Origin: Sinorhizobium fredii USDA 257
Lineage (GTDB): Bacteria; Pseudomonadota; Alphaproteobacteria; Rhizobiales; Rhizobiaceae
Length of the DNA stretch: 64,000 nucleotides
Direction: 5' to 3'
Assembly: GCF_000265205.3 (NCBI RefSeq)
Contig: NC_018000.1
Location: forward strand, 3,968,001-4,032,000
The position numbers were made by a program, and so were the translations under genes. Shown here piece by piece: positions 14,547 to 36,574 of the stretch (position 1 is its first letter; the number at the start of each line of letters is the position of its first letter). The notes beneath the pieces are model-generated. The model ran no database searches, had not been told where the DNA came from, and worked only from the letters and a program-made list of their open reading frames with translations.

Positions 14547-15000
14547 GAACGGGTGGAATTGCTTCTTCCGGCCAACGCGGATTGCTATCTCCAGGTGATT
14601 TATCCGGGCGAGCACTCCAGGCGCTCCCTCGTCATCAGTAAATAGCTGCGTTCCTCCGCAGCCCGCACACGAGCATTCAGGCGTACTCAGTTAAGCAATT
14701 CCGGGCACCACGGAGGTGCCCGGAAGAAAATCGCCTTGTTTCACCAGCAGTTGCTGCGTGGTGGTGATGGCTGCTGCTGTTTGTACGATGACACGAACTA
14801 TGTCGCATGTTAACCAAGATAAAGTAATGAAAACAATGACGCTCTTGACGTCAAGGACGTCGTGGAAATGAGGAACCAATGTCATTGGTTGAGCGCGTGA
14901 TGGGACGCAATAAGAGAACATCCGCCTGAGCGAGCGGCCGACCGTACGCACCCGGTGAAGACCGCGGCCGAACCCCGCCGAGGGCCGCCGCGCTAAGGTG
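14547..15000. other. Intergenic stretch with a hairpin and a palindrome
   Basis: No gene is recognised. A strong hairpin lies at 14699-14725 (TTCCGGGCACC pairing with GGTGCCCGGAA). An AT-rich patch around 14795-14845 contains the perfect palindrome CTTGACGTCAAG near 14844. The stretch leads into a decayed dehydrogenase and then the transposition module, so it may contain the left boundary of the mobile element, but I see no terminal repeat that proves this. Confidence 0.4.
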
Positions 15001-15430: not shown

Positions 15431-17287
15431 CTACGACGACGAGGTCGCCGAAGGACCTGAACGTTCGCCTGGTATTGGCTCGTCCCTTATAACATCCAAT
15501 GCCGCAGCGATCTCGGATCGTAGGTAGAACTGCGGGTGCTTTTTGCCTTCGGGTATGGGCGCGAGAATGCCGGAGCGCTTAAGTGCAAGTCGCAACCTTC
15601 TCATGGTGACATTGTGCTCCCTAAGAGCACCCCGGAAGGTTATAAACCTGCTAAAGAAAGCTTCAGCGTCAGCGGGTCTCACATAGCGGGTAGACTGATT
15701 GTGTCCGTTTCTTCCAATGTAGGAGGCGAGACAACCTGACTCACAGAGGTCTGCTGCAGCGTCGCGGCCAATCTTCCAAATTTCACCCACCTCATCGAGT
15801 GACAGATCTTCAATTTCTGGCTTGATAATGAAAGCCTCCAACTCTGTCGGATCGACCAACACGGCCTCGAGGCCAACTTTGCCCCAGTCCCAAGCTACAT
15901 GCTTCAGCTTGTGAGCTTGAAGCAGCCTTATTATGTCGATCGCCCTGTAGCTGGAGAGCCTGGCTGCGGTATTTATAGGTTTCAGGTGCTCCGCTACCGG
16001 GTAAATTTCTGTCGGTCGGATGCTCTCGATGAAGGTTTCGAGAGCTCTTCGAGAAAATCTCTCGGACAACGTGACGCCATTGCCAGGCACGATGACCGGG
16101 ACGAACAGCCCCTCGCGCCTGTACTTCGCAAAATTTGGATAGGACAGACCGACTGCCGCCGCCGCTTGGTTGGCTAGTAGAGAGTCTGCTAGAATCTTTC
16201 CTACCTTGAAGGCGACCTCCTTGGGTATCGCTCCGGAGTTGGCTGATGAAGGCTCCAGCATTCCAAGGGCGACTGCCATCTTTCGCATGTGGCTGGGTCT
16301 TAGTCCGAATTGCTGACGTAGCTCCGTCTCGGAAAGACAGCGCGCTTTATCAGACGTGCCGAAGACGTTGGCTGACATGCTTAGCGGAAGGACCTCGAAC
16401 GCATATTCGTGGATGGCTCGCTTCACGGCGTCCCAGGCGGGATCTTTCTGATCGTAAAGGATTTTGTAGAAACGCCCGTAGAGTTTGCCGCCGCCGAAAT
16501 CGGATTTGAGCAGGGGCGCCCGCTCGTGGAACAAATCGAGTGCTTCATGGAGGCCGCTGACACCTCGAGAGAGATATCCGTAGCCGTTCTCGCCTGCGCG
16601 CCATAGGTGCTCATCATCGAGTGCGCTCTGATCCGCATTGATCCCGAAGAGTATTGCGGTGCCAAGTACTTCGCAAAGGTAACCGGCACGGTCTAGCGGC
16701 ATTTCATCGAGGAGAGGGCCGTGCTGCCGGACGCCGTTCAAGCGGTCGATCGAGAATCGTTCGAAGTCAGTGATACGTCGCGACCGGACAGCCCCATAAT
16801 CTTGATAGATATCGGCTGCCAAAAGGCTCTCAACGAAATCATGGCATCGATTTGCGTGCAGAGGGGACCGACCGAGATCATTGAGAGCGCAGTGATGATG
16901 CGGGCAGGTCCTCAAGAACTGCAAGGGCCAGGTTCGTCGCATGTATTGACGGGTGCCGGGCATTCGGTCCAGGGCTTGATCGTCCTCCTCAAAGCACTTG
17001 GGACATATCTTCAGGTGAGTTCGAATGTAAAAGCGTTCTAGAATAGCCTCGCCGCCGACAATCCAGCTCTTTCCGATCTTGCCGACAGCGGCGTCGTTCA
17101 ATCGTGCGATCGAGACGCCACCAATTTCAGCCAATTTTCGAATGGCGGCATCTGTACCTCCGATCACATCTTGGAAACGGATCCCCATGTCCAAGCAAAA
17201 ATCCGGAGCGGTTTTGACGTTGGCCGCAGCCAATCTCGAACAATAGCTGGTCAGAATCTCGTCATCGAATAGAGGGACGCGGAACAT
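15431..17287 (-). CDS. TniQ/TnsD-type target-selection protein
   Basis: A 618-residue TniQ-family protein. In Tn7-like elements TniQ/TnsD proteins choose the insertion site and recruit the TnsC ATPase. The N-terminal FDDEILTSYCSRLAAAN is the typical TniQ opening. A zinc-binding set is visible as CPKC (residues 95-98) and CPHHHC (128-133). The C-terminal 400 residues form a long extension, as in site-specific TnsD and unlike short CRISPR-linked TniQ. The ATG at 17285-17287 is seven bases past the tniB stop. An open frame extends further upstream into tniB, but MFRVPLFDDE is where family proteins begin. It is the last gene of the operon. Confidence 0.88.
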   Translation of the reverse strand: MFRVPLFDDEILTSYCSRLAAANVKTAPDFCLDMGIRFQDVIGGTDAAIRKLAEIGGVSIARLNDAAVGKIGKSWIVGGEAILERFYIRTHLKICPKCFEEDDQALDRMPGTRQYMRRTWPLQFLRTCPHHHCALNDLGRSPLHANRCHDFVESLLAADIYQDYGAVRSRRITDFERFSIDRLNGVRQHGPLLDEMPLDRAGYLCEVLGTAILFGINADQSALDDEHLWRAGENGYGYLSRGVSGLHEALDLFHERAPLLKSDFGGGKLYGRFYKILYDQKDPAWDAVKRAIHEYAFEVLPLSMSANVFGTSDKARCLSETELRQQFGLRPSHMRKMAVALGMLEPSSANSGAIPKEVAFKVGKILADSLLANQAAAAVGLSYPNFAKYRREGLFVPVIVPGNGVTLSERFSRRALETFIESIRPTEIYPVAEHLKPINTAARLSSYRAIDIIRLLQAHKLKHVAWDWGKVGLEAVLVDPTELEAFIIKPEIEDLSLDEVGEIWKIGRDAAADLCESGCLASYIGRNGHNQSTRYVRPADAEAFFSRFITFRGALREHNVTMRRLRLALKRSGILAPIPEGKKHPQFYLRSEIAAALDVIRDEPIPGERSGPSATSSS

Positions 17288-17294
17288 GGCGGGC

Positions 17295-18365
17295 CTAGCT
17301 ACTGGGGCGCTTCGAGACCGGGCCGAAGACACCATTCCGGTTGATGGGCCGAACGATCTTCCGCCAATCATCGGAAGCGATGACATTGTTGTCGGCATCG
17401 TAGTCACCGTTCACGAGACGACGATAGCCTTCTTCCCAGCTTTGTGCGGTTACATCTTCCTGATCGTTCTCCAGCGCGTCTTCGATCGCGTGGTAGATGA
17501 TTTTCATAATCATGCCGAATCGGAAGTGGGCACCGAACATGAGGCGCTCGATGAAGTCCGGCGGCACGTCGGCGGACATGCGAAGTCCTGCCCGCTTTTC
17601 TACAAGTTCCAAGATGATGCGCGCTACCAACTCGCCGTCATTCTCTAAGGACATTTCCAATAGGGGAAAGTCATCGACGCGCCGCAGCAACTGATCCTTC
17701 GGGTCGCGCAGCACGACTTCCTTGATTTCGGGAAGGCCGAGAAGGACGATGAAGATGGGCCACTTCGGATTTTGCAGGAGGTTCTTGATCGAGTCCGCCA
17801 CATGGGTAGGCCCCTTCATCTTAGGCGCGTCCAGAACATGCTGGAATTCGTCTATTATGACGACCCTCGTACCACGCCTCCGCAGGTAGTTGCGGACGTC
17901 CCTGACAATCTCGCTCTCGCCCTTCCTGCGGGTAACTGGATAGCCCATCGCATCCAGCATCTCCTCACCGAGATCTATCATAGATGCCTTCGACGGAGCC
18001 TTGACGTATAGGACAGGATAAAGGTGATTGCCGTAACCATCGGGTATCGGCTGGAAGGATATCTCCTCTTTTAAACGCTGCTCCAGGAGCGTGGACTTGC
18101 CAGTTCCAGATTCGCCGTGGATTGCCACTGCGAAGGTGTCCGGATCCATGCTGGAAACGGCTCGTTTCATCCGTTCGAAAGGCACATCAACATACTTGTC
18201 GTTCGGTGTGGCGAAGTATGCCGACTTCACCCTCTTCATAGTGGACATTATGCGAAGGCCTTTGGCATCCAAGCCCTTCGTCGCCGCTGCGGCAACGACT
18301 TGCGCGTTCGCGTCCTTGGAGCTCGAAAGCTCGGGCTTCTCGCTTATCGCGGGTCTCACGGTCAC
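17295..18365 (-). CDS. TniB/TnsC-type AAA+ transposition ATPase
   Basis: A 356-residue AAA+ ATPase with Walker A GESGTGKST (residues 84-92, Lys90) and Walker B RVVIIDEFQH (about 167-176). Proteins of this type assemble on target DNA and connect the TniQ target selector with the transposase. It overlaps the transposase stop by four bases (ATGA, 18362-18365) and is followed by tniQ seven bases later, so the genes are one operon. The first 40 residues are low-complexity Ala/Ser/Lys and may be a linker. Closest in plan to TniB of Tn5053/Tn552-like and TnsC of Tn7-like elements. Confidence 0.9.
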   Translation of the reverse strand: MTVRPAISEKPELSSSKDANAQVVAAAATKGLDAKGLRIMSTMKRVKSAYFATPNDKYVDVPFERMKRAVSSMDPDTFAVAIHGESGTGKSTLLEQRLKEEISFQPIPDGYGNHLYPVLYVKAPSKASMIDLGEEMLDAMGYPVTRRKGESEIVRDVRNYLRRRGTRVVIIDEFQHVLDAPKMKGPTHVADSIKNLLQNPKWPIFIVLLGLPEIKEVVLRDPKDQLLRRVDDFPLLEMSLENDGELVARIILELVEKRAGLRMSADVPPDFIERLMFGAHFRFGMIMKIIYHAIEDALENDQEDVTAQSWEEGYRRLVNGDYDADNNVIASDDWRKIVRPINRNGVFGPVSKRPSS

Positions 18366-20725
18366 TTCTCCTCGTCGCTCCAGTCGGACTTGAACGTGCG
18401 GAGTCTCCCGGCGGTGCGACCCTTCTCTTTGGCCTTTCTTGGCAATACCTCGTGCGTTCCTCGCAGAAGATCGGTGACAGTTGTCTGGCGCTGAGGCTCT
18501 TCCTTCTTTGGCCTTGCTTTTGTCTCCTTCGGCGTCGGTGGCGTGGCTAGGGGAGGTGCCACGCCGTCCTGCTCTCGCCGCCGCGCGAATTCGTTCGGAT
18601 CGAACTGCCCCACCGACGGACCGAGAGTGTTGCTGCCGCCGTTGTCCTCGTCGTCAGCTTCAATCAGCAGCTCCGCTGCGTCATCCGCCCCGGAGTTGCC
18701 GCTCTGTGGAAGATTGTCGATGAGGAACAGCTCTGGATCAGGATCGTAGTCCGGGATGGACCTGTTCCCGACAACGTATCCGTTGAAAACCTGTTTCTCG
18801 AAATTGTCGTAGTCTTCCTTGGTGACGACGTGCGAGGCGACGTTGTGCCTGTCCTCGGAGAACTTCGCGGTGTTCATCACCTGCGTCAGCGCCTGGGAGA
18901 TGGTTTTCAAGTCCTGGATATCGTGCTGGGAGTACGCCTCATCCAGAAGACGCTTCGTCGCGACCCATTCGATGGCGGAGACGCCGTCGAACCCCGGAAC
19001 CGCCGCCTTCACCCAGAAGAACCCGTCGTCAGCCACCGTGCGGAAGCCTAGGAGGCCGAGGTTGTATGGATTGACCCTGATGATGACTTCTTTGTTCTTA
19101 TAGTACGCAAACAGGGCCTGAACCTCGGCGCTGTAATAGGGGATGCCTAGGCAGACGATGCCGGACCTGGAAATTTTTCTCTTGCCGGCGTTCAATCCGA
19201 ATATGAGGCCTTCTCTTTCAGGATCATCGAGCGTTAGCACCGGATGATCCCTCGTCAATCTTCCCCAGGCGTCGATCGGCTTCTGACCGCCGAGCCCTTT
19301 GTGCTTCATTAGGTGGTAGGCATCGACGATGAGACGGACAAGGCATCGGCCGAGTTCCTCAAAGTCCATAGAGGCGTTCGTTGTTGAATCATAAGCACCA
19401 CGAGCGATCGGATTGGAAAACGTCTGGCCCGTAAAAAGACGCAGCCATCTCTTGTTCGTTTTGAAAAAGCGTTCGATCCTGCCTCGTAGCCTCGGAGTTC
19501 CGGTTGGGGGCATGAGGTGGCTGCCGCAGAGTGCGAGCACGGCGGCGTGGAATTCCGCATCGAGGTAAGCGCCACCGTGATCGGTGGCCACTTCTTCCGG
19601 GATCCCGAATTGAACCCAGTCGCTTTCCGTACCCGCCGCTTCGGCGAAATTGTCCTTTGGCATGACGGCCATATGCAACGTGGCGACGCCCGACCGTCCG
19701 TTTGGATCAGAGTCCAGAAGACGTAGCGCCAGGATCGATCTCGTACCGCAGTCGATGGCCATCGATGCCCAAAACCGGTCCTTCAAAAGGAAGATCTTCT
19801 CCTGGATCTCAGGACTTATGACATTCCAAAGTCGGGTGCCCTTTAGCAGCGCGATGATATCGAGCTTGTCCTCGTCCATCTCGATCCTCTCGAGAGGTCG
19901 GAACTTTCGATTTGCCGTCTTAGACAACTCGTGCTTGTCTCTCGTGACCTCCTCGCCGAACTGACCGAGATCGATAAGCATCCTCTTCTGTTCGGCCACC
20001 CGTCGATAGAATGTGCGGATATGTGGAAGAGGAACGGGATCGTCGCTCGCCTCATTCGTGGCTTCCAGAAGCTGCCAATGGAGGGCGATGTCGATACGCT
20101 TCGCGGTGGCGAGCTTCCGTGCTTCTGCGTCGAGAAGTTGGTTCGTCCGATCCGACAGTTTGCGCCGAGGTGGCGAGACGTCGCCGGGGTCGCCCCCATA
20201 CATGAGGGACAAAGGGCTTCTATATCCTTCCTCGAACCTGTTGACGAGACGCATGAAATGTCGAGGCGTGCAGAGGTGATGCGTCTCGATAACGACCTTT
20301 TTCCGCCCTCCGCGAGGGGCCGGAATGTGCTTCTCGTATTCCGCTGCGTAATCGTCATAGAAATCCAAAATGCTTTCGTCCGATCGGGAGCGACGCCCCG
20401 CTTTCTCCTCTTCAAGGAATCTCGTGATCATTCGAGCGCGATACATGATGTGCTCCGGGATAATGGCCGGATCGATCAACTTCTTCTTGCGCTTGATGGC
20501 TTCCTCTTCGGAGTAGTAGTTCCTCTTGATAACGATCGCGCGGCGGCGGATAAACCGCGCGATTTCTGCATATGTGTAGAACTCTTCGGGTCCGGCGGCT
20601 CCGATCTCAGTAAAGACGTAGCCTTTCCTGTTTTGGGAGGGCCTCACACGAAAAGCCCCGCCGTTCATCTCGACCCTGTCGACCACGGACAAGCGAGCGG
20701 CCGTGAAAGGTTTTGCGTCGTCCAT
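18362..20725 (-). CDS. TniA/TnsB-type DDE transposase
   Basis: A 787-residue Mu/Tn7-type transposase. The catalytic triad can be read as Asp284 (IEMDEDKLDI), Asp382 (ATDHGGAYL) and Glu418 (RGRIERFF), with 35 residues between the last two, the classical DD-35-E spacing. DNA-binding domains should occupy the first 250 residues, and the C-terminal 200 residues contain a Pro/Lys-rich tail that could contact the ATPase. The ATG at 20723-20725 overlaps the TnsA-like stop by one base. TnsB-type enzymes cut and join the 3' ends of the element. Confidence 0.92.
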   Translation of the reverse strand: MDDAKPFTAARLSVVDRVEMNGGAFRVRPSQNRKGYVFTEIGAAGPEEFYTYAEIARFIRRRAIVIKRNYYSEEEAIKRKKKLIDPAIIPEHIMYRARMITRFLEEEKAGRRSRSDESILDFYDDYAAEYEKHIPAPRGGRKKVVIETHHLCTPRHFMRLVNRFEEGYRSPLSLMYGGDPGDVSPPRRKLSDRTNQLLDAEARKLATAKRIDIALHWQLLEATNEASDDPVPLPHIRTFYRRVAEQKRMLIDLGQFGEEVTRDKHELSKTANRKFRPLERIEMDEDKLDIIALLKGTRLWNVISPEIQEKIFLLKDRFWASMAIDCGTRSILALRLLDSDPNGRSGVATLHMAVMPKDNFAEAAGTESDWVQFGIPEEVATDHGGAYLDAEFHAAVLALCGSHLMPPTGTPRLRGRIERFFKTNKRWLRLFTGQTFSNPIARGAYDSTTNASMDFEELGRCLVRLIVDAYHLMKHKGLGGQKPIDAWGRLTRDHPVLTLDDPEREGLIFGLNAGKRKISRSGIVCLGIPYYSAEVQALFAYYKNKEVIIRVNPYNLGLLGFRTVADDGFFWVKAAVPGFDGVSAIEWVATKRLLDEAYSQHDIQDLKTISQALTQVMNTAKFSEDRHNVASHVVTKEDYDNFEKQVFNGYVVGNRSIPDYDPDPELFLIDNLPQSGNSGADDAAELLIEADDEDNGGSNTLGPSVGQFDPNEFARRREQDGVAPPLATPPTPKETKARPKKEEPQRQTTVTDLLRGTHEVLPRKAKEKGRTAGRLRTFKSDWSDEEK

Positions 20726-21477
20726 TAATTTGCCCTCCGCGCGCGGACAAATGAAACGGGTTCAAAAGTCAGCGACTTGTCGCTGGTGACATGCTCGACC
20801 AAGCCATCCCCCATCAGATTCCAAAGTGCTATCCACCCGGCTCCCCCGAGGCCGAACTCGTCCAGAAGCTCGAAGGCGCGGACCGGCTTGGTCTTCGTCT
20901 TGAGCAGTTCCACGAGTCGCGCGCAGTCGGGGGAGTTCTTGAGGCGTCGCGCCGCCAAAATTTCACGAGCCCGGTAAATATCGGATTTCGTCACCACCTT
21001 CTCCGTGAGAATTTCGATGCGGTGCGCGTGATACTTGAGCGCATGGTTACAAATATCTTCAACCATAGCTTTCAGCGCGCCGCGCTTGACCTTCTCCGCA
21101 GGGCGAACGCAGTAGAGGACGACTTCGCCGTTGTCGTACTGCACACGCAGGTCCGCCCAGTGCTCGTGGATGACGCCGTCTTCGTCGGTCCATTCGATGG
21201 GACCGTACTGCGCTTCGACTGAGCGAACGCTTTTCATCGCCCAAAAGACGACCGCGCAGTCCCGCTCGAAGAGGCTCTCGAAGACCAGGTACTGGTTGGT
21301 GCCCGGTGCACACATCAGGATGCGGCAGGAGGAACGCGACTTCAGCGCAACCTTTCGGCCGGCCGGGGCGGGCACCACATCGTAGTAGACCGTGAAGCCG
21401 AGTAGCTCTTCGATCGATTCCTTATATTTGCGCGCCTCGGTCGCTAGTCGACGCAATGCCGCCGCGATAACCCGCAT
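20725..21477 (-). CDS. TnsA-like endonuclease subunit (start uncertain)
   Basis: A protein of about 250 residues directly before the transposase, in the position of TnsA, which cuts the 5' ends so that the element moves by cut and paste. Visible are YLVFESLFERDCAVVFWAM with the glutamate helix and HEHWADLRVQ with the aspartate, then VVLYCVRPAEK where TnsA proteins normally show a V-x-V-K-P strand. Here Arg stands where the catalytic Lys is expected. The only ATG in frame with the conserved core, at 21475-21477, has no ribosome site. A better start (21580) is in the other frame; see the overlapping entry. The C-terminal 80 residues resemble a winged-helix TnsA C-domain. Confidence 0.7.
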   Translation of the reverse strand: MRVIAAALRRLATEARKYKESIEELLGFTVYYDVVPAPAGRKVALKSRSSCRILMCAPGTNQYLVFESLFERDCAVVFWAMKSVRSVEAQYGPIEWTDEDGVIHEHWADLRVQYDNGEVVLYCVRPAEKVKRGALKAMVEDICNHALKYHAHRIEILTEKVVTKSDIYRAREILAARRLKNSPDCARLVELLKTKTKPVRAFELLDEFGLGGAGWIALWNLMGDGLVEHVTSDKSLTFEPVSFVRARRAN

Positions 21478-21580
21478 CGGGCGTCGCGACGTATGTCTTG
21501 CGCTCGTAAGGGCGCGCCCAGGGATAATATCCCTGGCGAGCAAAATAGAGGGCTTCAAGCTGATTGAGCACCTGGATCAT
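21422..21580 (-). CDS. Short frame overlapping tnsA start (upstream gene or frameshifted TnsA N-terminus)
   Basis: A 52-codon frame beginning MIQVLNQLEALYFARQGYYP with AAAGGA seven bases before the ATG at 21578-21580, the best ribosome site in this interval. It overlaps the TnsA-like frame by 56 bases and ends TAA at 21422. Its sequence RPYERKTYVATPDAGYR runs straight into the region where the other frame becomes ALRRLATEARKYKESIEELLG. This is what one expects if a single base was lost near 21430-21470, or if translation shifts frame there. A separate short coupled peptide is the alternative. Confidence 0.5.
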   Translation of the reverse strand: MIQVLNQLEALYFARQGYYPWARPYERKTYVATPDAGYRGGIASTSDRGAQI

Positions 21581-21600
21581 AGGCCTATCCTTTCGTAATC

Positions 21601-21981
21601 TCAGATGGCTTCGGGAACGGCGGACTGGAAACGCATCGCCGAGGCGGCGAACGATGTCGGACGACGCCCGTTGCGCGTCATCCAAACGGCTTCGCGCGGC
21701 AGGTCGGCGATACGATTGCGGAAGGTGCTGTACGAGGGACGACGCATGGGGCTGCGCTCGGGCATCATGCGGGCGTCCTCATCGATCAACACCAGTAGTT
21801 CGTGCCAAAGCTCGCGGACTGTCGGGCGGCGACGGTCGACGTATGCCAACGCGACCACGCACTGCAGCACCGTTTCCTGGTAGGTGAAGGTGCGGCTGCG
21901 CTGGCGCGTGAACCAGTTGCGGAGCTCGGAATTCTCCATGAGGCGGCTCTCGAAAACACATGCGTATGCATTCTGCGACAT
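21601..21981 (-). CDS. Small leading gene of the transposition operon, unknown
   Basis: A 126-residue protein whose ATG (21979-21981) is preceded by a strong AAGGAG. It lies 20 bases upstream of the next start in the same direction, so it is the first gene of the operon. The part RPTVRELWHELLVLIDEDARMM is helical, and RPSYSTFRNRIADLP resembles the small helix-turn-helix motif found in the N-terminal domains of Mu-type transposases. I therefore suspect DNA binding, perhaps a regulator or an extra end-binding subunit, but no family can be named. Confidence 0.6.
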   Translation of the reverse strand: MSQNAYACVFESRLMENSELRNWFTRQRSRTFTYQETVLQCVVALAYVDRRRPTVRELWHELLVLIDEDARMMPERSPMRRPSYSTFRNRIADLPREAVWMTRNGRRPTSFAASAMRFQSAVPEAI

Positions 21982-23091
21982 GGCGCAGTACTCCTTTTTC
22001 GGTTCTTTAAGAATCTCTTCGGGCTTAGAGCGCGAGCGCGCCTCGTTGATCGCAGTCTCCTGCGGGAAAGAGAGCGCGGCGGATCCGTACTTTGAGATCC
22101 GTCAACTCCTGCTTGTCGACAAAGTTTTTCATTTCAGTCTCGTCCATCTGGCAGGTTCGGCGCGTAGACGCACGACTACTCGGCGGCGAACCTGAGTTCA
22201 CGCGATTTCGTAAGCGTTCCGCAGCCGAGCGAACCGGACGGAAGAGAGACTTCCGACGTGGTTAGCGCGCTGGCTGGAACGCTTGGAAGCGTTGTTGGAG
22301 ATGGATGGGGTGGAGACCCTGGTTAGTCATGTCTGCTTCCTCAAATTCCCGGTTGCTTGGAAAACTTATCGAGGAGTGCCGGGGCGTCCGTTTCGGCCGC
22401 GGCATAGATACCACGGCGCCTTAGGACGCTTGCCGGCAACCTTGTTGCCCAATTGCTGGTATCATCGTCATGACTATCCGTCTCAGTTCGAGGCCGCCCA
22501 TTATGGTGCGGTGGCGGCATAAAGCGCAGATCTCATTATTTTAATCAAGATGAAAAATCACCTAGGAAAGATATTTTTTGGACATGTGAGAAGAGAAGTC
22601 GCGGAGGGCGGCTGTCTAGGTCCAATTTATAGTTATCGCATAGTAATTTTTTGCGTACGTCGAATCCTTGTTGTCAACAATTAGTAACCGCCATCCCCGT
22701 ACGAGTCCTGAGTTGTTTCAAAACGAGAGAAGTCGATGGCGGTCCGACCGTGCAGCCGACGAAGCTGGCGTCAATGGCGTTCAAGCAACGCTGCTCACAG
22801 GCGAGGATCAGTGCTCATCACATGTCGTGGCGAAGAACCTCCGGGTACGATCTGAAGACACAGCCCTTTCGCGTTACCTTCGCCTCAACCACCTCAAGGG
22901 GAACAAGGCACAAAGTGGCTCGTTTGAATGAAGCTAACGAGCCACCGAGACGCTAAAGCCGATAGCTTGCCCCAAATGCGCCTGCGTCGACAGCGGCGTT
23001 CCTGTCATCAATCGCAGTGGGAGGCGCTCATCGGCGCACATCAAGTGCTGCGCAGCAGGTGCGGCGCGCCAATGTTCGCGATGCTCGGACT
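21982..23091. other. Gene-poor stretch on the right side of the transposition module
   Basis: About 1.1 kb without a convincing gene. An imperfect inverted repeat lies at 22211-22225 (AAGCGTTCCGCAGCC) and 22273-22285 (GGCTGGAACGCTT). TGTCGACAA at 22114-22122 and TTGTTGTCAACAA at 22668-22680 are related palindromes. The segment 22530-22670 is clearly AT-rich (TCATTATTTTAATCAAGATGAAAAA). The element's right end should be in here because the operon starts at 21981 and transposon genes usually begin close to an end, but I could not match any of these sequences to a partner on the left side. Short open frames here show no recognisable protein. Confidence 0.45.
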
Positions 23092-24093
23092 ATGAGGTCT
23101 CAAAATGAACTCCCAAGAAGACGAAGCAAAGGCGGTGGAACGGGCGATCCGGGGAGAGGAAGGACCGCCAGCACCCCAGGCGACTTCCCGGCGCTCGGCC
23201 TGCGCGACGTCTTCTGGCGGGTGGTTTCACAGGTCAGCGAAGATCGGGTGACGCTCGTGGCAGCCGGCGTCACGTTCTATATCCTTCTCGCCCTATTTCC
23301 AGCACTGACATCGCTGGTGTCGATCTACGGGCTCGTTTCGGATCCGACTGCCATCGGCGAGCAGATCGCCTATCTGGCGGCCGTTTTGCCTGCCCAGTCG
23401 CTGCAGTTGGTCACCGACCAGTTGCAGGCCATCACGTCGCAGAAGCCCTCCAGTCTGAGCATCGGCTTCATCGCCGGGCTGGTCGTCGCGCTCTGGAGTG
23501 CCCGTGCCGGGATCGCAGCACTCTTCGATGCCATGAATATCGCCTACGACGAAGTCGAAGAGCGCGGCTTCATCCGGCTGACTATGCTTAGTCTTGCCTT
23601 TACGGCGGCTGGTCTCCTCGTCACGGCTGTCCTGATCGCTGCGATCGCGGTCTTGCCGGCAGTCCTCGCCTTTCTCTCGCTTGACCGGTGGCTGGAGAGC
23701 CTCGCAAGGATTCTGCGCTGGCCGGTGCTGCTGCTGTTGATCGGCGCGGCAATAGCCCTGCTTTACCGATACGGACCCGACCGCGATCCGCCGAAGTTGA
23801 GGTGGCTCACCTGGGGCGCGGCGCTCAGCACGCTCTGCTGGCTCCCGGCCTCGCTCTTGTTCTCGTTCTACATCGACAACTTCGCAGACTATAACGCCAC
23901 CTACGGCGCCATGGGTGCGCTGATCGGCTTCATGCTCTGGATCTGGCTGTCGACTATCATCATCATCGTCGGCGCAGAGCTCAACGCCGAACTGGAGCAC
24001 CAGACGGCGCGGGATACCACCATGGGTCCTTCCAAGAAAATGGGCGACCGCGATGCTTACGTGGCCGATACAATAGGCGAGAAAAGCGATTGA
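23092..24093 (+). CDS. YihY/UPF0761 family inner-membrane protein (N-terminus altered)
   Basis: A 333-residue protein with the YihY/BrkB fold: VTLVAAGVTFYILLALFPAL, six membrane segments and the ending LWIWLSTIIIIVGAELNAELE. Function of the family is unknown. In this frame the first ATG is at 23092, giving the odd start MRSQNELPRRRSKGGG. In the next frame an ATG at 23105 reads MNSQEDEAKAVERAIRGEEG, which is how rhizobial relatives usually begin, and that frame joins this one if one base is added near 23155-23165. So a one-base deletion or sequencing error has displaced the N-terminus; the membrane core is intact. Confidence 0.75.
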   Translation: MRSQNELPRRRSKGGGTGDPGRGRTASTPGDFPALGLRDVFWRVVSQVSEDRVTLVAAGVTFYILLALFPALTSLVSIYGLVSDPTAIGEQIAYLAAVLPAQSLQLVTDQLQAITSQKPSSLSIGFIAGLVVALWSARAGIAALFDAMNIAYDEVEERGFIRLTMLSLAFTAAGLLVTAVLIAAIAVLPAVLAFLSLDRWLESLARILRWPVLLLLIGAAIALLYRYGPDRDPPKLRWLTWGAALSTLCWLPASLLFSFYIDNFADYNATYGAMGALIGFMLWIWLSTIIIIVGAELNAELEHQTARDTTMGPSKKMGDRDAYVADTIGEKSD

Positions 24094-24447
24094 GTTCCGG
24101 TCCTGCGCTGTCAAGAACGGGGCCTTGCCCGCTCGGGATGTCCTGTCTCGCCAGACATTGGGGTTACGCTGGTGGTGCATTGTTATATTCTCGAGCTCCA
24201 TCCGGCCGTGGCGGGCCATGCAACGAGATGACCTGATGGACGTGTCGCACAATCAATGCGTATAGTGCGGTCCGACGCAGTCGCGCCGAGCCGGGAGACC
24301 GGCGCGAGCTTTTTTCCGCGGGAGGACGTCGAGCGCGATGAACACGCGGTCCTGCTGCCGCATCGCGCTCCCGCTTATGCGAACCGATCACGTTCATGAC
24401 CTTGACGCGATTTGGTCCAGGGTGATCGTGATCCTGGGAGGAAGCGG
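24094..24447. other. Intergenic stretch with a terminator-like hairpin
   Basis: No gene is seen. At 24281-24315 TCGCGCCG pairs with CGGCGCGA around a GC-rich loop and is followed by GCTTTTTT, a good rho-independent terminator for plus-strand transcription. It is almost 190 bases after the YihY stop, which leaves room for a short transcript ending there. AGGATCGTG and GGGAGG motifs near the right end belong to the leader of the next gene. Confidence 0.5.
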
Positions 24448-25401
24448 ATGCCTTCAATCAAGGATCACTCGGAGCAGGTCTACCGTGTCGCGAATCAGTC
24501 GTCGGCCGCGGTGAGTTCGCCGGTCGCCGCGTCTTGGCGCCGCTGCATGACTCGTCACGGCCTAGCGCCAGAGGAAGCAAGGCTGCCGTGGCGCCTCCCC
24601 GAAGCCGAATTGCTGCAAGCGCGCGAGCGATCCGGCGTTTTGATCTCAGAGGCCGGTGGCGAACTCGACCGGTTGTTCGCCATTGTTGGAAAGGCCGGCT
24701 GCTGCCTGCTGCTTACCGATGAGAAGGGCATCGCGCTCGAACGCCGAGGCGCGGCCGGCGACGATGCGGACTTTCGTGACATCGGCCTGTGGTCGGGCAC
24801 TGTGTGGAGCGAGGCGAGCGTCGGAACCAACGGCATCGGTACGGCGATCGCAGACGAACGTCCGGTAGTCATCCAACGCGACCAACACTTTCTCAGTCGC
24901 AATATCGGCTTGAGCTGCGCCACTGCGCCGGTCCGCGACGAAGCCGGGCGCCTCGCGGCGGCGCTGGACGTGTCCACCTGCCGCGGCGATGCCTCGGAGG
25001 CAATCGTGTCGATCCTTGCTCAGGCCGTGCGCGATGCAGCGGCTCGTATCGAGGCGAACCTCTTCCGCCGCGCCTTTGCCGGTGCTCGCATTGTGCTGGT
25101 GCCCGTCGACCGTGCCGGCCCCGCGCTTCTCGCAGTCGACCGCGACGACCTCGTCCTCGGAGCGACGCGGGCGGCGCGCGTGTCGCTTGGCCTCGACGAC
25201 AGACGCATAGCCGCCGGAGTTCCTGCCTCCGACCTGCTGCAGGAGGACCTGCGCGAGGGCGGAGAGTTGCCGGATGCCGAAAGAGCGGCCCTGCGCCGCG
25301 TGCTGTCGCGCAACAACGGTAACGTCTCGATGGCCGCCGACATCCTCGGGATCAGCCGCGCTACGCTCTACCGGAAGATGAAGCGGGTTTCACTGACTTG
25401 A
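24448..25401 (+). CDS. AcoR-like GAF/Fis transcriptional regulator without AAA+ domain
   Basis: A 317-residue regulator. A GAF-type sensor spans about residues 60-190 (SEASVGTNGIGTAIADERPVV and HFLSRNIGLSCATAPV are typical of AcoR-like sensors). A Fis-type helix-turn-helix ends the protein (LSRNNGNVSMAADILGISRATLYRKMKR). The sigma-54 interaction domain that full AcoR proteins carry between these parts is absent, as in several rhizobial relatives that sit near alcohol or aldehyde dehydrogenase genes. GGGAGG lies seven bases before the ATG at 24448. An NAD-independent view of its target is not possible here, but the zinc alcohol dehydrogenase at 28257 is a candidate. Confidence 0.82.
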   Translation: MPSIKDHSEQVYRVANQSSAAVSSPVAASWRRCMTRHGLAPEEARLPWRLPEAELLQARERSGVLISEAGGELDRLFAIVGKAGCCLLLTDEKGIALERRGAAGDDADFRDIGLWSGTVWSEASVGTNGIGTAIADERPVVIQRDQHFLSRNIGLSCATAPVRDEAGRLAAALDVSTCRGDASEAIVSILAQAVRDAAARIEANLFRRAFAGARIVLVPVDRAGPALLAVDRDDLVLGATRAARVSLGLDDRRIAAGVPASDLLQEDLREGGELPDAERAALRRVLSRNNGNVSMAADILGISRATLYRKMKRVSLT

Positions 25402-25533: not shown

Positions 25534-26100
25534 CTAGCTGATTGGGACGATCATCTGCCGCCAGTCGTCTGGGCCCGGCTCTCCGAGTTCCGGAATGTGC
25601 CAACCGTGAGATGGTTCGACATGCCAGATTCCATCGAGAGGGCTATAGAGGCCGGGGAGGGGAAAGTGCCGGTGGATCCTGAGGAAGTCGCCGACGTCGC
25701 ATGAGGCGATTGGAATGCCATGCACTATCGCCACAGCAGCTATTTCTGGGTCGCATCCGAACCTCATCTTCGACGAATTGTCCGGACTTCGCCAGAACCC
25801 GGCGAGCTCGGGCACCATGGACATTCTTGCCAGCAGCTTTTTCACGCCAGCATCGACCGCCGGCGTGTGGACGTCGGTCTTGAGGAGATCGTCGACCCAG
25901 TCCGAAAAGCGTCGGCCGCGTTCCTGGTCAAGGATACCCGCATTGATCGCGCCCCGTTCGAGTTCGAAGATTACAGGAGGGGCGACCGCAACGGCGCCCG
26001 GAGGTATCTGGAACAGGAATGCCAGCACGTCCTCGTGCGGCACAGATCGCCGCGCTTCGCTCAGGACACTGGTGTCCAGTAAGATGAAGTTCGCCTGCAT
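25534..26100 (-). CDS. PIN-domain (VapC-like) probable toxin
   Basis: A 188-residue protein whose first 140 residues form a PIN domain, a Mg-dependent RNase fold. The acidic residues are in LLDTSVLSE (Asp9), FELERG, and CDPEIAAVAIVHGIPIASCDVGDF. The last 45 residues (GIWHVEPSHGWHIPELGEPG) extend beyond the usual VapC length. AAGGGGAG precedes the ATG at 26098-26100. The probable antitoxin is divergent at 26218 rather than upstream in the same operon, which is not the usual vapBC order. Confidence 0.75.
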   Translation of the reverse strand: MQANFILLDTSVLSEARRSVPHEDVLAFLFQIPPGAVAVAPPVIFELERGAINAGILDQERGRRFSDWVDDLLKTDVHTPAVDAGVKKLLARMSMVPELAGFWRSPDNSSKMRFGCDPEIAAVAIVHGIPIASCDVGDFLRIHRHFPLPGLYSPLDGIWHVEPSHGWHIPELGEPGPDDWRQMIVPIS

Positions 26101-26217: not shown

Positions 26218-26409
26218 ATGGCTCAAGACAACAAGTGGGACCTGTCCGATGCCGGGACAGACCTCAATGAAGTCTTCGAGGCCGCAAAGGAGGACGGCCC
26301 CCAGCTCGTTTTTGATGGAGAAGGAGTCTTTACTGTTTCATATTCGGCGCGAGGCAAGAAGGGCAGCGCTAAGGAGTTTCTGACGAGCGGCGGGCCGGAC
26401 GACACCTAG
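26218..26409 (+). CDS. Phd/YefM-like probable antitoxin
   Basis: A 63-residue protein with the N-terminal Phd pattern: NKWDLSDAGTDLNEVFEAAKEDGPQLVF corresponds to the W-x-L-x-D-A ... A-x-x-x-GPQ-x-V dimerisation and DNA-binding part. A short C-terminal segment, SAKEFLTSGGP, resembles the toxin-binding tail of VapB/Phd partners. GAGGATTCAAG precedes the ATG. It is divergent from the PIN-domain gene with 117 bases between, where an autoregulated operator would be expected. Pairing with the toxin is inferred from position. Confidence 0.65.
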   Translation: MAQDNKWDLSDAGTDLNEVFEAAKEDGPQLVFDGEGVFTVSYSARGKKGSAKEFLTSGGPDDT

Positions 26410-27328
26410 GTAAGCGGCGGTATAAGTTTGGATCGTCGCGACGTGTCAGCGAAACCCAAATGGGAGGTCAGGTACTGATCATGTCCGGACCACTCGGCCA
26501 TCCACAGTTTAGATCTGCGGCTGGTTCGGGTTTTGATTTTGCTGAAAAACTCCATGGTCGCCACCAAAATATGCGAGCGAGGCGCGCGGTCACGCATTAT
26601 CCGTTTCACCACGCTATTCGCCACATCCAGTGGCAGTCCAATGACCGCAAGGTGATTGTGGGCACGTATTTCGGACGAGACCTGATGGAAGGCGACATTC
26701 GACGGGTCGCCGCGGCGACCGAGGCCTTCACCGGGGTGGACATCGCAAAGATCGCGCGAGAGGCTCGGAGGAAGGCGCGGTCGGCCGGCATCGCAATTGA
26801 TGCGGAGATGGTGCTTGCCGCACTCCCCCCTGTCGTGAAGATTGAAGGTCAACTCTGATGTGAGCTGTGCTCTGCATAGAACGCTCGCTGCCGAATTGGA
26901 TGCTTGGCTATGAGAAGGCTTTGATGCAGGTTGCTGGGGAGGTTGAAAGGGCGCGCCCATGGCAGTCAGGCTCGAAGATGAATTCCGCCGAACGGAGAAC
27001 TGTTCCTGCGACTCATCCGAGCTGGGCTTTCGCTACTAGAATCGGTCGCAACCGCAGAGCGTCTCGCTGATATGGAGATCATCGACACGGACTAGGGATC
27101 GCGGCAGGAAGTATCCTGGCGCTTCGTAGAACTGGACGGGCGGGTGGTCACCTCACTGAGCAGCCGACATGCTGCCTGCGAGCCGATACCCAGTTGTGCA
27201 ATCCATCGCTTTGGGAGCAGCTAGCCTCGCATACTTTCTGCGAGTGCAGGGTGCTCAGTGCAGTTGGAGTGCTTGCCACAGCGGGCCCGGTTTGCTTTCC
27301 TTCGTGCGTTTCAACTTGGGCAAAACCA
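26410..27328. other. Degenerate accessory stretch
   Basis: About 900 bases with broken coding pieces. Apart from the AAA remnant listed separately, I see only short frames, for example FLRLIRAGLSLLESVATAER near 27005-27060 in one frame, that look like parts of former proteins. No insertion-sequence ends were recognised. The stretch separates the toxin-antitoxin-like pair from the DUF1275 gene. Confidence 0.4.
26643..26858 (+). pseudogene. C-terminal remnant of an AAA+ ATPase
   Basis: The frame reading DRKVIVGTYFGRDLMEGDIRR, then AFTGVDIAKIAREARRKARSAG and EMVLAALPPVVKIEGQL to the stop at 26858 matches the lid (C-terminal helical) part of FtsH/Cdc48-like AAA+ ATPases, where the G-x-x-G-A/V-D-I-A-x-x-x-x-x-A-R motif is standard. 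No Walker A or B motif is found upstream in any frame, and the preceding sequence is unrelated. So only the end of the gene survives. Confidence 0.55.
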
Positions 27329-28006
27329 ATGACGGTGCAGCGGCGGCGGCAGATCATAAAGCGCCAGCGGAGTTCTGTTGGTCTGGCGCTTATCGCCGCA
27401 ATATCGTTCCTGGCGGGCATGACCGACGCCATAGGACTCATGTCCATCGGAGACTTCGTGTCCTTCATGAGCGGCAACACGACCCGCGCATCCGTCGCCC
27501 TCGTCCAAGGCGATGTCGCTCGAGGGTTGCTTCTCATCGGAGGGCTGGTCAGCTTCGTACTCGGGAACGCCGCGGGAGTGATTGTATCGATCCGGTTTAG
27601 ACCGCAAGCCGCCTTGTTGTTTGTATCGGTTCTGCTCGCATGCGCTGCGTTGTCTGCCAATCAAACAGAGCTCCGTTTCCTTTTGCTCATCTTCGCCATG
27701 GGAGCCGTCAACGCCTCAGTCGAACAGATCGAAGGTCTGCCGGTTGGCCTGACGTACGTCACGGGAGCACTCTCGCGCTTCGGCCGAGGACTCGGACGTT
27801 GGGCGATGGGCGTCCGCAACACGTACTGGATCATTCAGATCGTGCCGTGGCTCGGCATGTTCGCAGGAGCCATCATAGGGGCGGTCCTGGTGCGAGAAGC
27901 AGGGGATCTCGCCTTATGGGTGCCGTCGCTTGCCGCCTTATTGCTTACTGCCGCAGCGTTTCAAATACCCCGCCGCTGGCAAAGCAGGTTCATCCAAAAT
28001 CGCTAG
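27329..28006 (+). CDS. DUF1275 (YoaK-like) membrane protein
   Basis: A 225-residue membrane protein with about six spans. The family motif GMTDAIGLMSIGDFVSFMSGNTTRAS follows the first helix, and MGAVNASVEQIEGLPVGLTYVTGALSRFGRGL contains the second conserved block of DUF1275. The function of this family is unknown; transport has been suggested. The ATG at 27329 has only a weak GGG upstream, and an open frame reaches 45 codons further left, but family proteins start near MTVQRRRQ. Reads as a stand-alone gene. Confidence 0.8.
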   Translation: MTVQRRRQIIKRQRSSVGLALIAAISFLAGMTDAIGLMSIGDFVSFMSGNTTRASVALVQGDVARGLLLIGGLVSFVLGNAAGVIVSIRFRPQAALLFVSVLLACAALSANQTELRFLLLIFAMGAVNASVEQIEGLPVGLTYVTGALSRFGRGLGRWAMGVRNTYWIIQIVPWLGMFAGAIIGAVLVREAGDLALWVPSLAALLLTAAAFQIPRRWQSRFIQNR

Positions 28007-28256
28007 TGCGAATGTGCCCATCTGGCACCAGCATCAAATCAGGTTTGGCAGCCCGGTTTGGGCCGTCACGGTTTGCGGGCGCGCGACTGTCTCAACTCTG
28101 AGACAACCTCCTCCTCGAAACACCCTCCCTTGATTCCCGTCAAGGAACGGCGGCTTGTTCTCCCGCTAAGCTCCCGATCGTCAGCGCTCGCTCGGAGGAG
28201 GTGCGCGATGCCGGCCGCGCCGGCGCCAACACCATCCAGTATTGGAGGAGATTTAT

Positions 28257-29279
28257 ATGTCCATGAAAGCCGCTGTGGTCCGCGAGTTCGGTAAGCCGCT
28301 TGTCATCGAGGAAGTCCCGATACCGCAGCCAGGGCCTGGCCAGGTCCTCATCAAATACGAGGCGACGGGCGTGTGCCACACCGATCTGCATGCCGCCAAG
28401 GGCGATTGGCCAGTCAAGCCAAATCCACCGTTCATTCCCGGCCATGAAGGGGTGGGCTACGTCGCCAAGCTCGGCGCGGGCGTCAAACGGCTGAAAGAGG
28501 GGGATCGGGTCGGCGTGCCATGGCTGCACACCGCCTGCGGCTGCTGCACGCCCTGCCGCACCGGCTGGGAGACGCTTTGCGGCAGCCAGCAGAATACCGG
28601 CTATTCCCTTGACGGCACCTTTGCCCAGTATGGGCTCGCTGACCCGGATTTCGTCGGGCGGCTGCCTGGCAAGCTGGAGTTCGGTCCGGCAGCACCGGTG
28701 CTCTGCGCCGGCGTCACGGTCTACAAGGGCTTGAAGGAGACGGAGGCGAGACCCGGTGAATGGGTCCTCGTCTCCGGCATCGGCGGGCTCGGCCACATGG
28801 CCGTGCAATATGCCAAGGCCATGGGCATGCATGTCGCCGCGGCCGACATCTTCCCTGACAAGATTGAGCTTGCCGAGAAGCTCGGCGCCGACCTCGTCAT
28901 CGATGCCAGGGCGCCCGATGCCGTCGAGGAGGTGCAGAAGCGGACGGGCGGCGTCCACGGAGCGCTGGTCACGGCTGTCTCACCAAAGGCGATGGAGCAG
29001 GCTTACAGGATGCTGCGCTCCAAGGGTACCATGGCGCTCGTCGGTCTGCCGCCGAGCCAGATCTGCCTGCCGGTGTTCGATACGGTTCTGAAGCGCATCA
29101 CGGTTCGCGGCTCTATTGTCGGGACACGCCAGGATCTGGAGGAAGCGTTGGAATTTGCCGGCGAGGGCAAGGTCGCGGCCCACTTCTCCTGGGACAAGAT
29201 CGAGAACATCAACGCCATCTTCGAGCGCATGGAAGAAGGCAAGATTGACGGCCGTATCGTTCTCGACCTGAACGGTTGA
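28257..29279 (+). CDS. adhA: Zinc-dependent alcohol dehydrogenase
   Basis: A 340-residue medium-chain alcohol dehydrogenase of the AdhP/AdhA type. Catalytic zinc ligands are in GVCHTDLHAAKGDW and PGHEGVGYV, and the structural zinc cysteines in CGCCTPCRTGWETLC. The NAD-binding loop is GIGGLGHMAVQYAK. The reaction is reversible oxidation of primary alcohols such as ethanol to aldehydes with NAD+. GGAGGAG is seven bases before the ATG at 28257; a second ATG six bases later is less well placed. A hairpin at 29315-29345 follows. An adhA-type gene flanks the same denitrification genes in S. meliloti, as far as I recall. Confidence 0.93.
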   Translation: MSMKAAVVREFGKPLVIEEVPIPQPGPGQVLIKYEATGVCHTDLHAAKGDWPVKPNPPFIPGHEGVGYVAKLGAGVKRLKEGDRVGVPWLHTACGCCTPCRTGWETLCGSQQNTGYSLDGTFAQYGLADPDFVGRLPGKLEFGPAAPVLCAGVTVYKGLKETEARPGEWVLVSGIGGLGHMAVQYAKAMGMHVAAADIFPDKIELAEKLGADLVIDARAPDAVEEVQKRTGGVHGALVTAVSPKAMEQAYRMLRSKGTMALVGLPPSQICLPVFDTVLKRITVRGSIVGTRQDLEEALEFAGEGKVAAHFSWDKIENINAIFERMEEGKIDGRIVLDLNG

Positions 29280-29314
29280 GCCTTCGAGTACATATGCAGT
29301 TTTGACAAATAAAT

Positions 29315-29345
29315 CCGCCCGCTGACCCATCCGGTCGGCGGGCGG
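29315..29345. terminator. Hairpin after the alcohol dehydrogenase gene
   Basis: CCGCCCGCTGAC pairs with GTCGGCGGGCGG (one G-U pair) around a 7-base loop, 35 bases after the stop. It is strong enough to stop transcription, but no T run follows. Confidence 0.5.
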
Positions 29346-29608
29346 CTAGCCGCCCGCGCCGCCTCACGCAAAAGAGCCAACGAATCCTTGGTCGACTTGT
29401 CAGCGCTGTGAGCACCGCGCATGGATACCACTGAAGGCCAGCGGCAGCTTATGTTGTAGTTCATTCCGATGCGCGAGTGCTTGGCCGGGCGCGCAATGCG
29501 TTACTCACCGAACGCGCAACAAGTTTCTGAAGAGCCGCCCGCCAATCATGCTTGCGCTCCCGGCGCTCGGGGTCTCTCGGCCGAGCCAGGTTTTATTCCA
29601 ACCAGCCT

Positions 29609-29791
29609 TCAGGGCCGTATGCGGAGAGGGAGGCTTGTGTCACGAAAAACCCGGCGATCTATAAGTCCAGCGTGCCTTCGATCCTCCTGGAGCACTTCGA
29701 AAAGAGAACTCATTTCCCCAAGAGCGATGGTTTGAGACATGGCGATGTCTAGCGCCGCATCTCGCCATGGGGTTCGTTTCAAGGCGTCCAT
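29609..29791 (-). CDS. Possible small soluble protein, unknown
   Basis: A 60-residue frame (MDALKRTPWRDAALDIAMSQ to DTSLPLRIRP) that begins 33 bases after the stop of the gene at 29825, in the same direction, with AAGGGA upstream of its ATG. Composition is that of a normal helical protein and the spacing fits an operon, so I list it as a possible last gene of the ubiTUV operon. No family recognised. From 29280 to 29608 I see only the hairpin listed separately. Confidence 0.4.
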   Translation of the reverse strand: MDALKRTPWRDAALDIAMSQTIALGEMSSLFEVLQEDRRHAGLIDRRVFRDTSLPLRIRP

Positions 29792-29824
29792 CAGTGCATT
29801 CCCTTTGATGTTGCTGCTCAGGCT

Positions 29825-30271
29825 TCACTCATCGATGTCGGACGCGGCGCAATTGGCGCTTCCGGCATCCTCCTGCACCAGCTCGTTTGCAAACTGAAGC
29901 TGACGCGATTGCCTCAACAGACTCGAACCCAGCTCTGCGGCTGCGGCGATATCGCCGAAGAGCAGGCCGGCTTCATCGATCATGCCGTCGTCCAGCGGCG
30001 ACGGCTCTTTCGGGTCGAAATCACCAAGCAGCACGAGCAGCGCCTCAATCCTTCGCCGCTGCTCATCGGCAGCGGCCAGCAGACGCTGGACGATCCGGTC
30101 GCGTTCAAGCCTTTCCAGGTCGCGCAGCGCCCCGTCCACCCGGTCGCGGCATTCGCAATCGATGGCGCTACTTAGAACCGCGCCACGCATGCGCCCGACT
30201 GCGCGGCTAATTTCCTCATTTGCTTGTGCGAAAGTCGATGCGATTGCCGATGAGGAGTCGTTCGCTCTCAT
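29825..30271 (-). CDS. Hypothetical helical protein in the ubiTUV operon
   Basis: A 148-residue, mostly helical soluble protein without recognised family. The central part (CRDRVDGALRDLERLERDRIVQRL) is likely coiled coil, followed by an acidic loop DFDPKEPSPLDDG. Its start overlaps the ubiV stop by four bases (ATGA, 30268-30271), so it is cotranscribed with ubiT-ubiU-ubiV and should be made under the same low-oxygen conditions. Two cysteines (CEC) near residue 40 could bind a metal, but this is a guess. Confidence 0.7.
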   Translation of the reverse strand: MRANDSSSAIASTFAQANEEISRAVGRMRGAVLSSAIDCECRDRVDGALRDLERLERDRIVQRLLAAADEQRRRIEALLVLLGDFDPKEPSPLDDGMIDEAGLLFGDIAAAAELGSSLLRQSRQLQFANELVQEDAGSANCAASDIDE

Positions 30272-31203: not shown

Positions 31204-31210
31204 GGACAAT

Positions 31211-32685: not shown

Positions 32686-32757
32686 CTCTTTCGCCTTTTG
32701 CAAATGACGACTCGGCGGCTTCGGTGGGGACCCTAGCGGCAAGCTCCGCGGAGCAAT

Positions 32758-32771: not shown

Positions 32772-32805
32772 AGACAGGAGGGTTTTCGCAGGCGAGACAC
32801 CGCGC

Positions 32806-34928: not shown

Positions 34929-34967
34929 AAGAGGCGGCGCGGCCGACGGCGGCAAGAGGCACGTCGC

Positions 34968-36165: not shown

Positions 36166-36176
36166 CGGGACTTGCC

Positions 36177-36563: not shown

Positions 36564-36574
36564 TTGGATCCCCC

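Follow-up and report, generated by a model that had tools for sequence, protein, structure and literature searches.

Tn7 has a selector protein with a CCCH zinc motif, and it inserts in one orientation, about 20 bp past the stop codon of a conserved gene, with a 5-bp duplication (available part of PMC2918618). The accessible text of PMC11406308 names glmS, yhiN (Tn6230), comM (Tn6022), parE (Tn7017), and tRNA genes (TnsD of types I-B2 and I-D) as protein-chosen insertion sites, and guaC, yciA, ffs, and rsmJ as guide-chosen sites. Here we analyzed a 64,000-nt stretch of the Sinorhizobium fredii USDA 257 genome (G000), called the window, in which an initial annotation had reported a Tn7-like transposition module at positions 15431..21981. 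We consider it highly probable (about 0.9) that this operon is the transposition module of a Tn7-like transposon of 173,831 bp, which sits 17 bp past the stop codon of nrdJ, the gene of the B12-dependent ribonucleotide reductase. Observed directly were the ends, the 5-bp duplication, five genomes with an element at one site in one orientation, and ten genomes of the genus that lack it there.

The operon consists of five open reading frames (ORFs) on the minus strand in the order small gene, TnsA-like gene, tnsB, tnsC, and tniQ, with gaps of 42, -1, -4, and -113 bp (Table 1), as the initial annotation had described them. The tniQ frame is open over 15431-17407 (658 residues), of which 618 are counted from the methionine common to its relatives. 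The TnsA-B-C-TniQ order is also present in Ensifer adhaerens L18 (genome G340, locus L022), Agrobacterium rubi TR3 (G276, L023), and Rhizobium aethiopicum SEMIA 4074 (G279, L024), and because it recurs there the arrangement is not due to chance. Pfam profiles recognized TniQ (2e-21) and TniB/TnsC (AAA; 4.1e-20), and TnsB matched Mu-transpos_C (0.0018) and the IS481 core (5.8e-9), each below its own cut-off. A profile built from 16 TnsB relatives matched solved TnsB proteins, the best at 1.4e-46. Two of the motifs that had been called intact are also conserved: the DD35E triad (D284, D382, and E418, with 35 residues from the second D to the E) is invariant in 16/16 TnsB sequences, and the CCCH motif (C135, C138, C168, and H171) in 13/13 TniQ sequences. 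Judging from this zinc motif and from three winged-helix-like units at residues 408-466, 473-527, and 533-588 of the model, TniQ is a predicted TnsD-like protein. Membership of the Tn7-like group is well supported.

The assignment of the TnsA-like gene stands on its operon position and a weak profile match, and its expected catalytic lysine is replaced. The active TnsA nuclease of heteromeric Tn7 has catalytic E, D, and Lys residues. In an alignment of 15 sequences, including two pairs more than 96% identical, D136 is invariant and Arg152 is found in 15/15 at the lysine position, which was chosen by eye from the motif of Tn7 TnsA. The same-genus relative G018, whose TnsB is 39% identical, reads ACRP at this place, and the lysine is kept in TnsA of two distant elements (L004 and L008, see below). 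The small gene matched no family among the Pfam and NCBIfam profiles; it is present in E. adhaerens, in two copies in R. aethiopicum, and was not found in the A. rubi locus. Its profile (four sequences) aligns with the TnsB segment just N-terminal of the catalytic domain (hhalign E 1.3e-6, a single comparison). Our guess is that a piece of transposase encoded on its own in this way might regulate TnsB or compete with it.

Table 1. Features in and around the transposition operon, in window positions
Feature	Position	Strand	Remarks
Target-site duplication CTGTT, left copy	14777..14781		Partner at continued 188613-188617 (genome C1:4156613-4156617), outside window
Transposon left end (TGTACGATGACACGAACTATGTCGCATGTTAACCA...)	14782..14835	+	Conserved in L022, L024; partly in L023
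TniQ/TnsD-type target selector	15431..17287	-	618 residues; CCCH zinc motif; three C-terminal winged-helix-like units
TnsC/TniB-like AAA+ ATPase	17295..18365	-	Matches VchTnsC, 3.9e-21
TnsB-like DD35E transposase	18362..20725	-	Family profile matches PseTnsAB, Tn6677 TnsB, other solved TnsB
TnsA-like protein	20725..21558	-	D136 invariant; Arg152 where catalytic Lys expected
Small protein	21601..21981	-	Resembles TnsB residues 189-263 (hhalign probability 90.6)
Stretch 74% identical to R. aethiopicum element, same place (L024 7786-8211)	22109..22534	-	DNA comparison
BrkB-family membrane protein and GAF/Fis-type regulator	23017..25401	+	Between PIN gene and operon; no match in L022-L024
PIN-domain protein	25534..26100	-	Conserved upstream of operon in L022, L023, L024, and more distant L030
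63-residue protein divergent from PIN gene	26218..26409	+	Conserved in L022, L023, L024
FtsH-like AAA+/M41 gene remnant	26619..26855	+	Gene whole in L022, L023; Smith-Waterman and blastp
Cargo with denitrification and microaerobic respiration genes, for the most part colinear with pSymA of S. meliloti	27177..64000	+	Interrupted 46.6-52.9 kb; continues outside window to 169382

The left terminus (TGTACGATGACACGAACTATGTC) was found as the single short conserved DNA block past tniQ when the window was compared with the related loci. Its distance from tniQ ranges from 0.65 kb in the window to ~4 kb in A. rubi, whose contig ends inside the left end, and its sequence has one match in the genome when up to 3 mismatches are allowed. 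The right end lies beyond the window; when the left-end sequence or a consensus of 29 bp was used to look for it inside the window, nothing rose above chance. The element occupies C1:3982782-4156612 (window 14782 to continued position 188612, G+C 61%). The operon is confirmed as annotated but belongs to a far larger unit, in which the PIN-domain gene and the small divergent gene upstream are also conserved. The other elements measure ~41.5 kb (G340), ~48.8 kb (G279), and ~36.2 kb (G018). The right-end repeat recurs at a 20-bp step. A scan of 193 kb for the end motif, with up to 3 mismatches allowed, found it at both termini, in the second copy of the right-end repeat, at one place no better than chance, and nowhere else. 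Identical 5-bp duplications flank the elements in 4/4 genomes with both ends, namely CTGTT in G000, CTAAC in G340, ATAAT in G018, and ACTGA in G279. The left terminus of G279 is aberrant (TATGCC) and was placed by the duplication, which is therefore not independent; the left end of G276 lies beyond its contig. Thus the terminal repeats, whose absence the initial annotation had named as a refutation, are present, and so is the 5-bp duplication that it had named, together with an empty site, as support for mobility. By eye, fragments of a short-chain dehydrogenase-like gene are seen between the left end and tniQ (14990-15360), and L043, L046, L048, and L050 have hairpins that differ in sequence within ~70-180 bp of their right ends; the latter are perhaps nrdJ terminators supplied by the element.

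The insertion site, for which the initial annotation had no candidate, lies at the 3' end of nrdJ. In four relatives (three other genera and G018) the end lies 19-21 bp past the nrdJ stop in the same orientation, with perfect duplications in the 3/3 that could be checked. Counted from the first base of the stop codon, the insertion offset is 20-24 nt in 5/5 element-bearing genomes (G000, G018, G340, G276, and G279), with distinct duplications and one orientation; in G276 the element and nrdJ are on different contigs and the right end alone is seen. Together with the conserved ends, this bears out the suggestion of a TnsD-style fixed-site element. The distance between nrdJ and tnsB is 29-40 kb in G018, G340, and G279 and 168 kb in G000, where nrdJ is also 174 kb from the left end and the tnsB start is separated from the right end by 167,887 bp. 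In each of these four genomes nrdJ flanks the element opposite its left end.

The usual chromosomal neighbor of nrdJ is a pair of GNAT and lipoprotein genes (window ~11.06-11.78 kb), and the GNAT gene was found in 12/33 same-genus genomes at 1e-40, G018 included. In all 10 examined of the 11 GNAT-bearing genomes other than G018, nrdJ is located 94 bp to 6.1 kb from this neighbor with its 3' end facing it. Gene order therefore reveals unoccupied sites, and the operon is not a fixed feature of the same place in all relatives; the proposed empty-site comparison succeeded at this level but not, for G000, at the level of letters (see below). The joined flanks of G018 restore the native nrdJ terminator of G004 and G023, and gave nothing above shuffles against G021 and G010. 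The DNA past nrdJ varies greatly between relatives. The GNAT gene itself, found close to the operon-side end of three loci, was considered as the target and rejected, being simply the neighbor of nrdJ in the genus. It is broken by a frameshift in the window (11061-11419) and whole in relatives (e.g., L030 3793-4368). No Rfam match at gathering scores was obtained within 8-32 kb, and no tRNA in the window.

The pattern of the nrdJ end followed by 8-28 nt and TGTRNNNYGMCA occurs in 4/394 genomes of the family, exactly those with a close TnsB, and a looser pattern in 2/397 of an order-level sample, both already-known genomes; because the patterns were written from known cases, they show association, not an unbiased rate. 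Among 13 sequences scanned, one further nrdJ-end-like stretch was found, inside the G279 element: 33 bp, 27/33 identical to the nrdJ end of that genome (score 36, against 27 for the largest of 1000 shuffles). A second-type transposon end (TGTGGCGCGCCATTGG, like the end of G018) starts 73 nt from the start of this copy (copy and end at L048 5560-5650), compared with 75 nt at the true site, and the partner of this end was not found in the three loci scanned. In our reading, a related element probably landed on a copy of the site that the G279 element carries. G340 and G276 also have second-type repeats (GCGCCACTAGGTTTGTCA-like), located ~65 bp inward of their first-type right ends (L046 5209 and L050 15116), without an nrdJ-end copy.

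Several observations weigh against the interpretation as a mobile element targeted to nrdJ. The TnsA-like match is weak (NCBIfam TnsA_like_Actin 2.1e-5, 24 bits against a cut-off of 110), its profile gave a chance match only against the PDB, and its structure model is unusable (pLDDT, the predicted local distance difference test score, 45.8). The winged-helix matches of TniQ have middling Z scores, with a warning by the tool that the arrangement may only be a common one. Four of the ten unoccupied sites hold 1.3-6.1 kb of other DNA between nrdJ and its neighbor, and the joined flanks of G000 matched none of 8/8 relatives better than shuffled sequence, so its unoccupied state is read from gene order and the duplication. 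The 33-bp copy is a single case, and in G000 otsAB lies between the usual neighbor and the left end, from which it follows that the nrdJ locus underwent other rearrangements. Transposition of the element is our proposal from sequence. As for otsA-otsB (window 11930-14237), similarity stops at both flanks of the pair in six same-genus otsB regions (L025-L029 and L031), and therefore the pair seemingly moved to the site in this lineage.

Relatives of this TnsB are few (28 proteins at E ≤0.001, query included, among 7998 candidates scored) and fall into groups 53-74% and 36-38% identical, with four more at 27-32%; the names given by their sources are Rhizobium, Agrobacterium, Ensifer, Sinorhizobium, and Microvirga. 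Some TnsB match at 0.001 was found in 12/33 same-genus genomes, of which only USDA 257 and G018 carry either main group. In the 394-genome family sample, 12 have a TnsB match at ≤1e-60, and four of these, USDA 257 included, are at least 66% identical. In a plasmid collection searched by protein (4124 records), identity was below 60% throughout.

In the mechanism we propose, the C-terminal winged-helix-like units of TniQ would bind the 3' end of the nrdJ coding sequence, which is strongly conserved and encodes a C-terminal Cys motif (MVRNGTCEKCDTCGATSGCS). The 33-bp copy inside the G279 element would be indirect evidence for such binding. The bound TniQ would recruit TnsC, TnsC would admit the TnsA/TnsB transposase, and the transposase would insert the ends into non-coding DNA at a set distance past the nrdJ stop. 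Because insertion falls after the stop, the host gene stays whole.

In its CCCH selector, its insertion ~20 bp past the stop of a conserved gene, its 5-bp duplication, and its single orientation, the element resembles Tn7 (TnsABC+D at glmS). The gene order of Tn7 is TnsA, TnsB, TnsC, and selector, as in this element. Unlike Tn7, it has nrdJ rather than glmS as its target, an extra small gene, and arginine for lysine in TnsA, and its operon lies at the end away from the target gene, with most cargo between the target-side end and tnsA. It is thus not Tn7 in the strict sense, which is defined by the glmS attachment site. TnsE was not noticed, no profile search aimed at it having been made. With Tn6230, Tn6022, Tn7017, and the tRNA-gene TnsD of I-B2/I-D it shares a TniQ/TnsD-type choice of a fixed chromosomal site, although nrdJ is not named among their sites in the accessible text of PMC11406308. 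The closest solved relatives by sequence (PseTnsAB, Tn6677 TnsB, and VchTnsC) belong to the Tn6677-type (I-F3) CRISPR (clustered regularly interspaced short palindromic repeats)-associated transposons. Unlike these, the element has a long TniQ (618 residues) with winged-helix-like units of its own. A scan of 193 kb for array-like repeats, taken as exact 16-mers present three times with a spacing of 45-90 bp, found none, in line with the initial annotation, which had seen no CRISPR array nearby; Cas proteins were not searched with profiles. Tn5053 and Tn402 have no TnsA, a resolvase TniR, and targeting to res sites, in contrast to the TnsA-like gene and the nrdJ site found here. No second TniQ is present in the element; two other TniQ matches of the genome lie elsewhere. 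A second Tn7-like set of USDA 257 (L004, C1:5030759; C1:5024000-5043000) has TnsA-B-C-TniQ with a TnsB 29% identical and a TnsA that keeps the lysine, as does the TnsA-B-C set of L008 (G032), whose TnsB lies within the 27-29% identity range of the two. Another locus (L005, C3:20000-38691) holds a short TniQ-family gene (322-residue frame) and a TnsB-like frame of 304 residues, the latter also found at 28% in G006, G010, and G020.

The cargo includes a long stretch of DNA of megaplasmid type. Continued positions 27177-169382 (142 kb) follow the pSymA plasmid of S. meliloti 1021 (708.9 down to 590.4 kb) in a largely colinear order and a single direction, with main blocks 74-90% identical (91,457 bases aligned, all matches counted, some paralogous), gaps at 46.6-52.9 and 100.2-129.5 kb, and one 3.3-kb block out of order (83.0-86.4 kb). 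Where it aligns with a plasmid of Sinorhizobium sp. CCBAU 05631 that carries annotation, the element has nor, nirK, nap, nnr, ccoNOQP (cbb3 oxidase), ccoG/fixH/P-type ATPase/ccoS, and copC/D, and the out-of-order block covers fixLJ. The denitrification block, beside which the element had been placed, therefore lies inside it. A single P-loop motif scan, the only search made for nos, nif, and nod genes, was unsuccessful. Near nrdJ, all four islands tested with PADLOC (10 chosen proteins each, none from G279 and with the first ORF of G340 left out) gave matches to defense families: a caspase and a DEAD helicase in the element itself, a CD-NTase with E1-E2 (CBASS-like) in G018 and G340, with GajAB slightly further away in G018, and a CD-NTase and HerA in G276. 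The element has defense-type genes at the nrdJ end, the operon at the far end, and, in this genome, a pSymA-type segment in the middle.

How this segment arrived bears on whether the 174-kb unit ever moved whole. We give an even chance to the possibility that it did not, and that an ordinary 30-50 kb nrdJ element came first and absorbed megaplasmid DNA later by homologous or insertion sequence (IS)-driven recombination. This agrees with the sizes of the related elements, with the rearranged neighborhood (otsAB and the broken GNAT gene), and with the plasmid-like contig C14 of the same genome, where parts of this region, at up to 95% identity to the element, stand in another order (pSymA 619-642, then 590-594, then 711-722 kb). 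Against it, neither inner joint has a known IS or recombination scar, though none was searched for. A direct move out of C14 was considered and set aside, as the stretch 594-711 is not between its neighbors there, which is no proof given that paralogous copies exist and that 49 of 211 kb were read (C14:103000-152000; L068-L070).

Less likely, and put forward tentatively, is that the element is the fossil of a cointegrate. With the TnsA lysine replaced by arginine in all aligned sequences, the family would have lost cut-and-paste and would copy itself on insertion, and an element arriving from a plasmid would then fuse the whole plasmid to the chromosome behind nrdJ. An element-bearing pSymA-type plasmid would have joined the chromosome in this way, with the plasmid DNA between two transposon copies, and later deletions would have removed the inner end of each copy and left the outer duplication intact; the remainder would be the right end and its cargo, the plasmid segment, and the operon with the left end. 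The replaced lysine in 15/15 TnsA sequences suits this account, although arginine may still support catalysis. So do the non-plasmid, transposon-type DNA of the outer parts (14782-27177 and 169382-188612) on both sides of the pSymA-colinear span, the confinement of the end motif described above, and the perfect outer duplication, yet ordinary recombination, IS, or several insertions could have brought plasmid DNA into an older element. The relatives G340, G279, and G018 carry only ~36-49 kb, scars of the two deletions were not identified, and a whole FtsH-like gene pair within the pSymA-colinear span is unexplained by the model. We infer, with falling strength, that TniQ reads nrdJ, that TnsA with arginine alters the mechanism, and that the megaplasmid block came via a fused intermediate.

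It is improbable that the inner joints arose by misassembly, with the pSymA-like DNA in truth part of a plasmid. The assembly has 20 contigs, and C1, at 6.48 Mb, is large for one replicon of this group, but C1 holds both outer ends with the matching duplication. That the operon is a stranded, immobile relic, near nrdJ by shared chromosomal ancestry and not by targeting, is hardly credible despite the rarity of the family (2/33 same-genus genomes at TnsB matches of at least 39%), because the 5-bp duplications are distinct and, like the insertion offsets, differ in genomes of four genera, in addition to the unoccupied same-genus sites, the open frames, and the invariant catalytic residues of TnsB.

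Some genes between the operon and the megaplasmid-type cargo are shared with the relatives (Table 1). The 63-residue protein, which by resemblance could be a Phd-like antitoxin, had no match in PADLOC, the sole library tried. The FtsH-like remnant was missed by tblastn and detected by blastp and Smith-Waterman comparison with three copies (scores 99, 138, and 157; largest of 500 shuffles 66, 68, and 55). The FtsH-like gene and a ~204-residue partner are whole in E. adhaerens and A. rubi, broken up in G018, and present in G279 (L049), and the element of USDA 257 also holds a whole FtsH-like copy, 39-40% identical, at 125.3-127.7 kb. In PADLOC the E. adhaerens protein gave mainly AAA-type matches (IetA 6.6e-27, TRIP13). 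In the R. aethiopicum element, two genes of 499 and 355 residues (L024 15408-17934) separate tniQ from the left end; neither matched Pfam, and the latter had no match in PADLOC.

As far as we searched, the nrdJ site and a bounded element of 174 kb are new. The words "nrd" and "ribonucleotide" are absent from the accessible main text of PMC10293859, "ribonucleotide" is absent from the available text of PMC8649781 and PMC11406308, and "Tn7-like" and "nrdJ" occur together nowhere in the literature covered, which left supplements, subscription papers, and preprints outside. The boundary survey described in section 6 of PMC8649781, in its accessible part, scanned 125 kb on either side of tnsB; the right end reported here, 168 kb from tnsB, lies beyond that range, and therefore the number of giant elements may be underestimated. 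Targeting is directly testable with the attachment site, ends, likely recognition sequence, and unoccupied sites described here. nrdJ ends in a strongly conserved Cys motif, and in Tn7, too, the site is at the conserved end of a coding sequence (glmS). In USDA 257, denitrification genes of megaplasmid type lie between transposon ends on a chromosome-like contig. If insertion by copying is true, a Tn7-like transposon would be a direct route for blocks of a symbiosis megaplasmid, here denitrification, into a chromosomal safe site.

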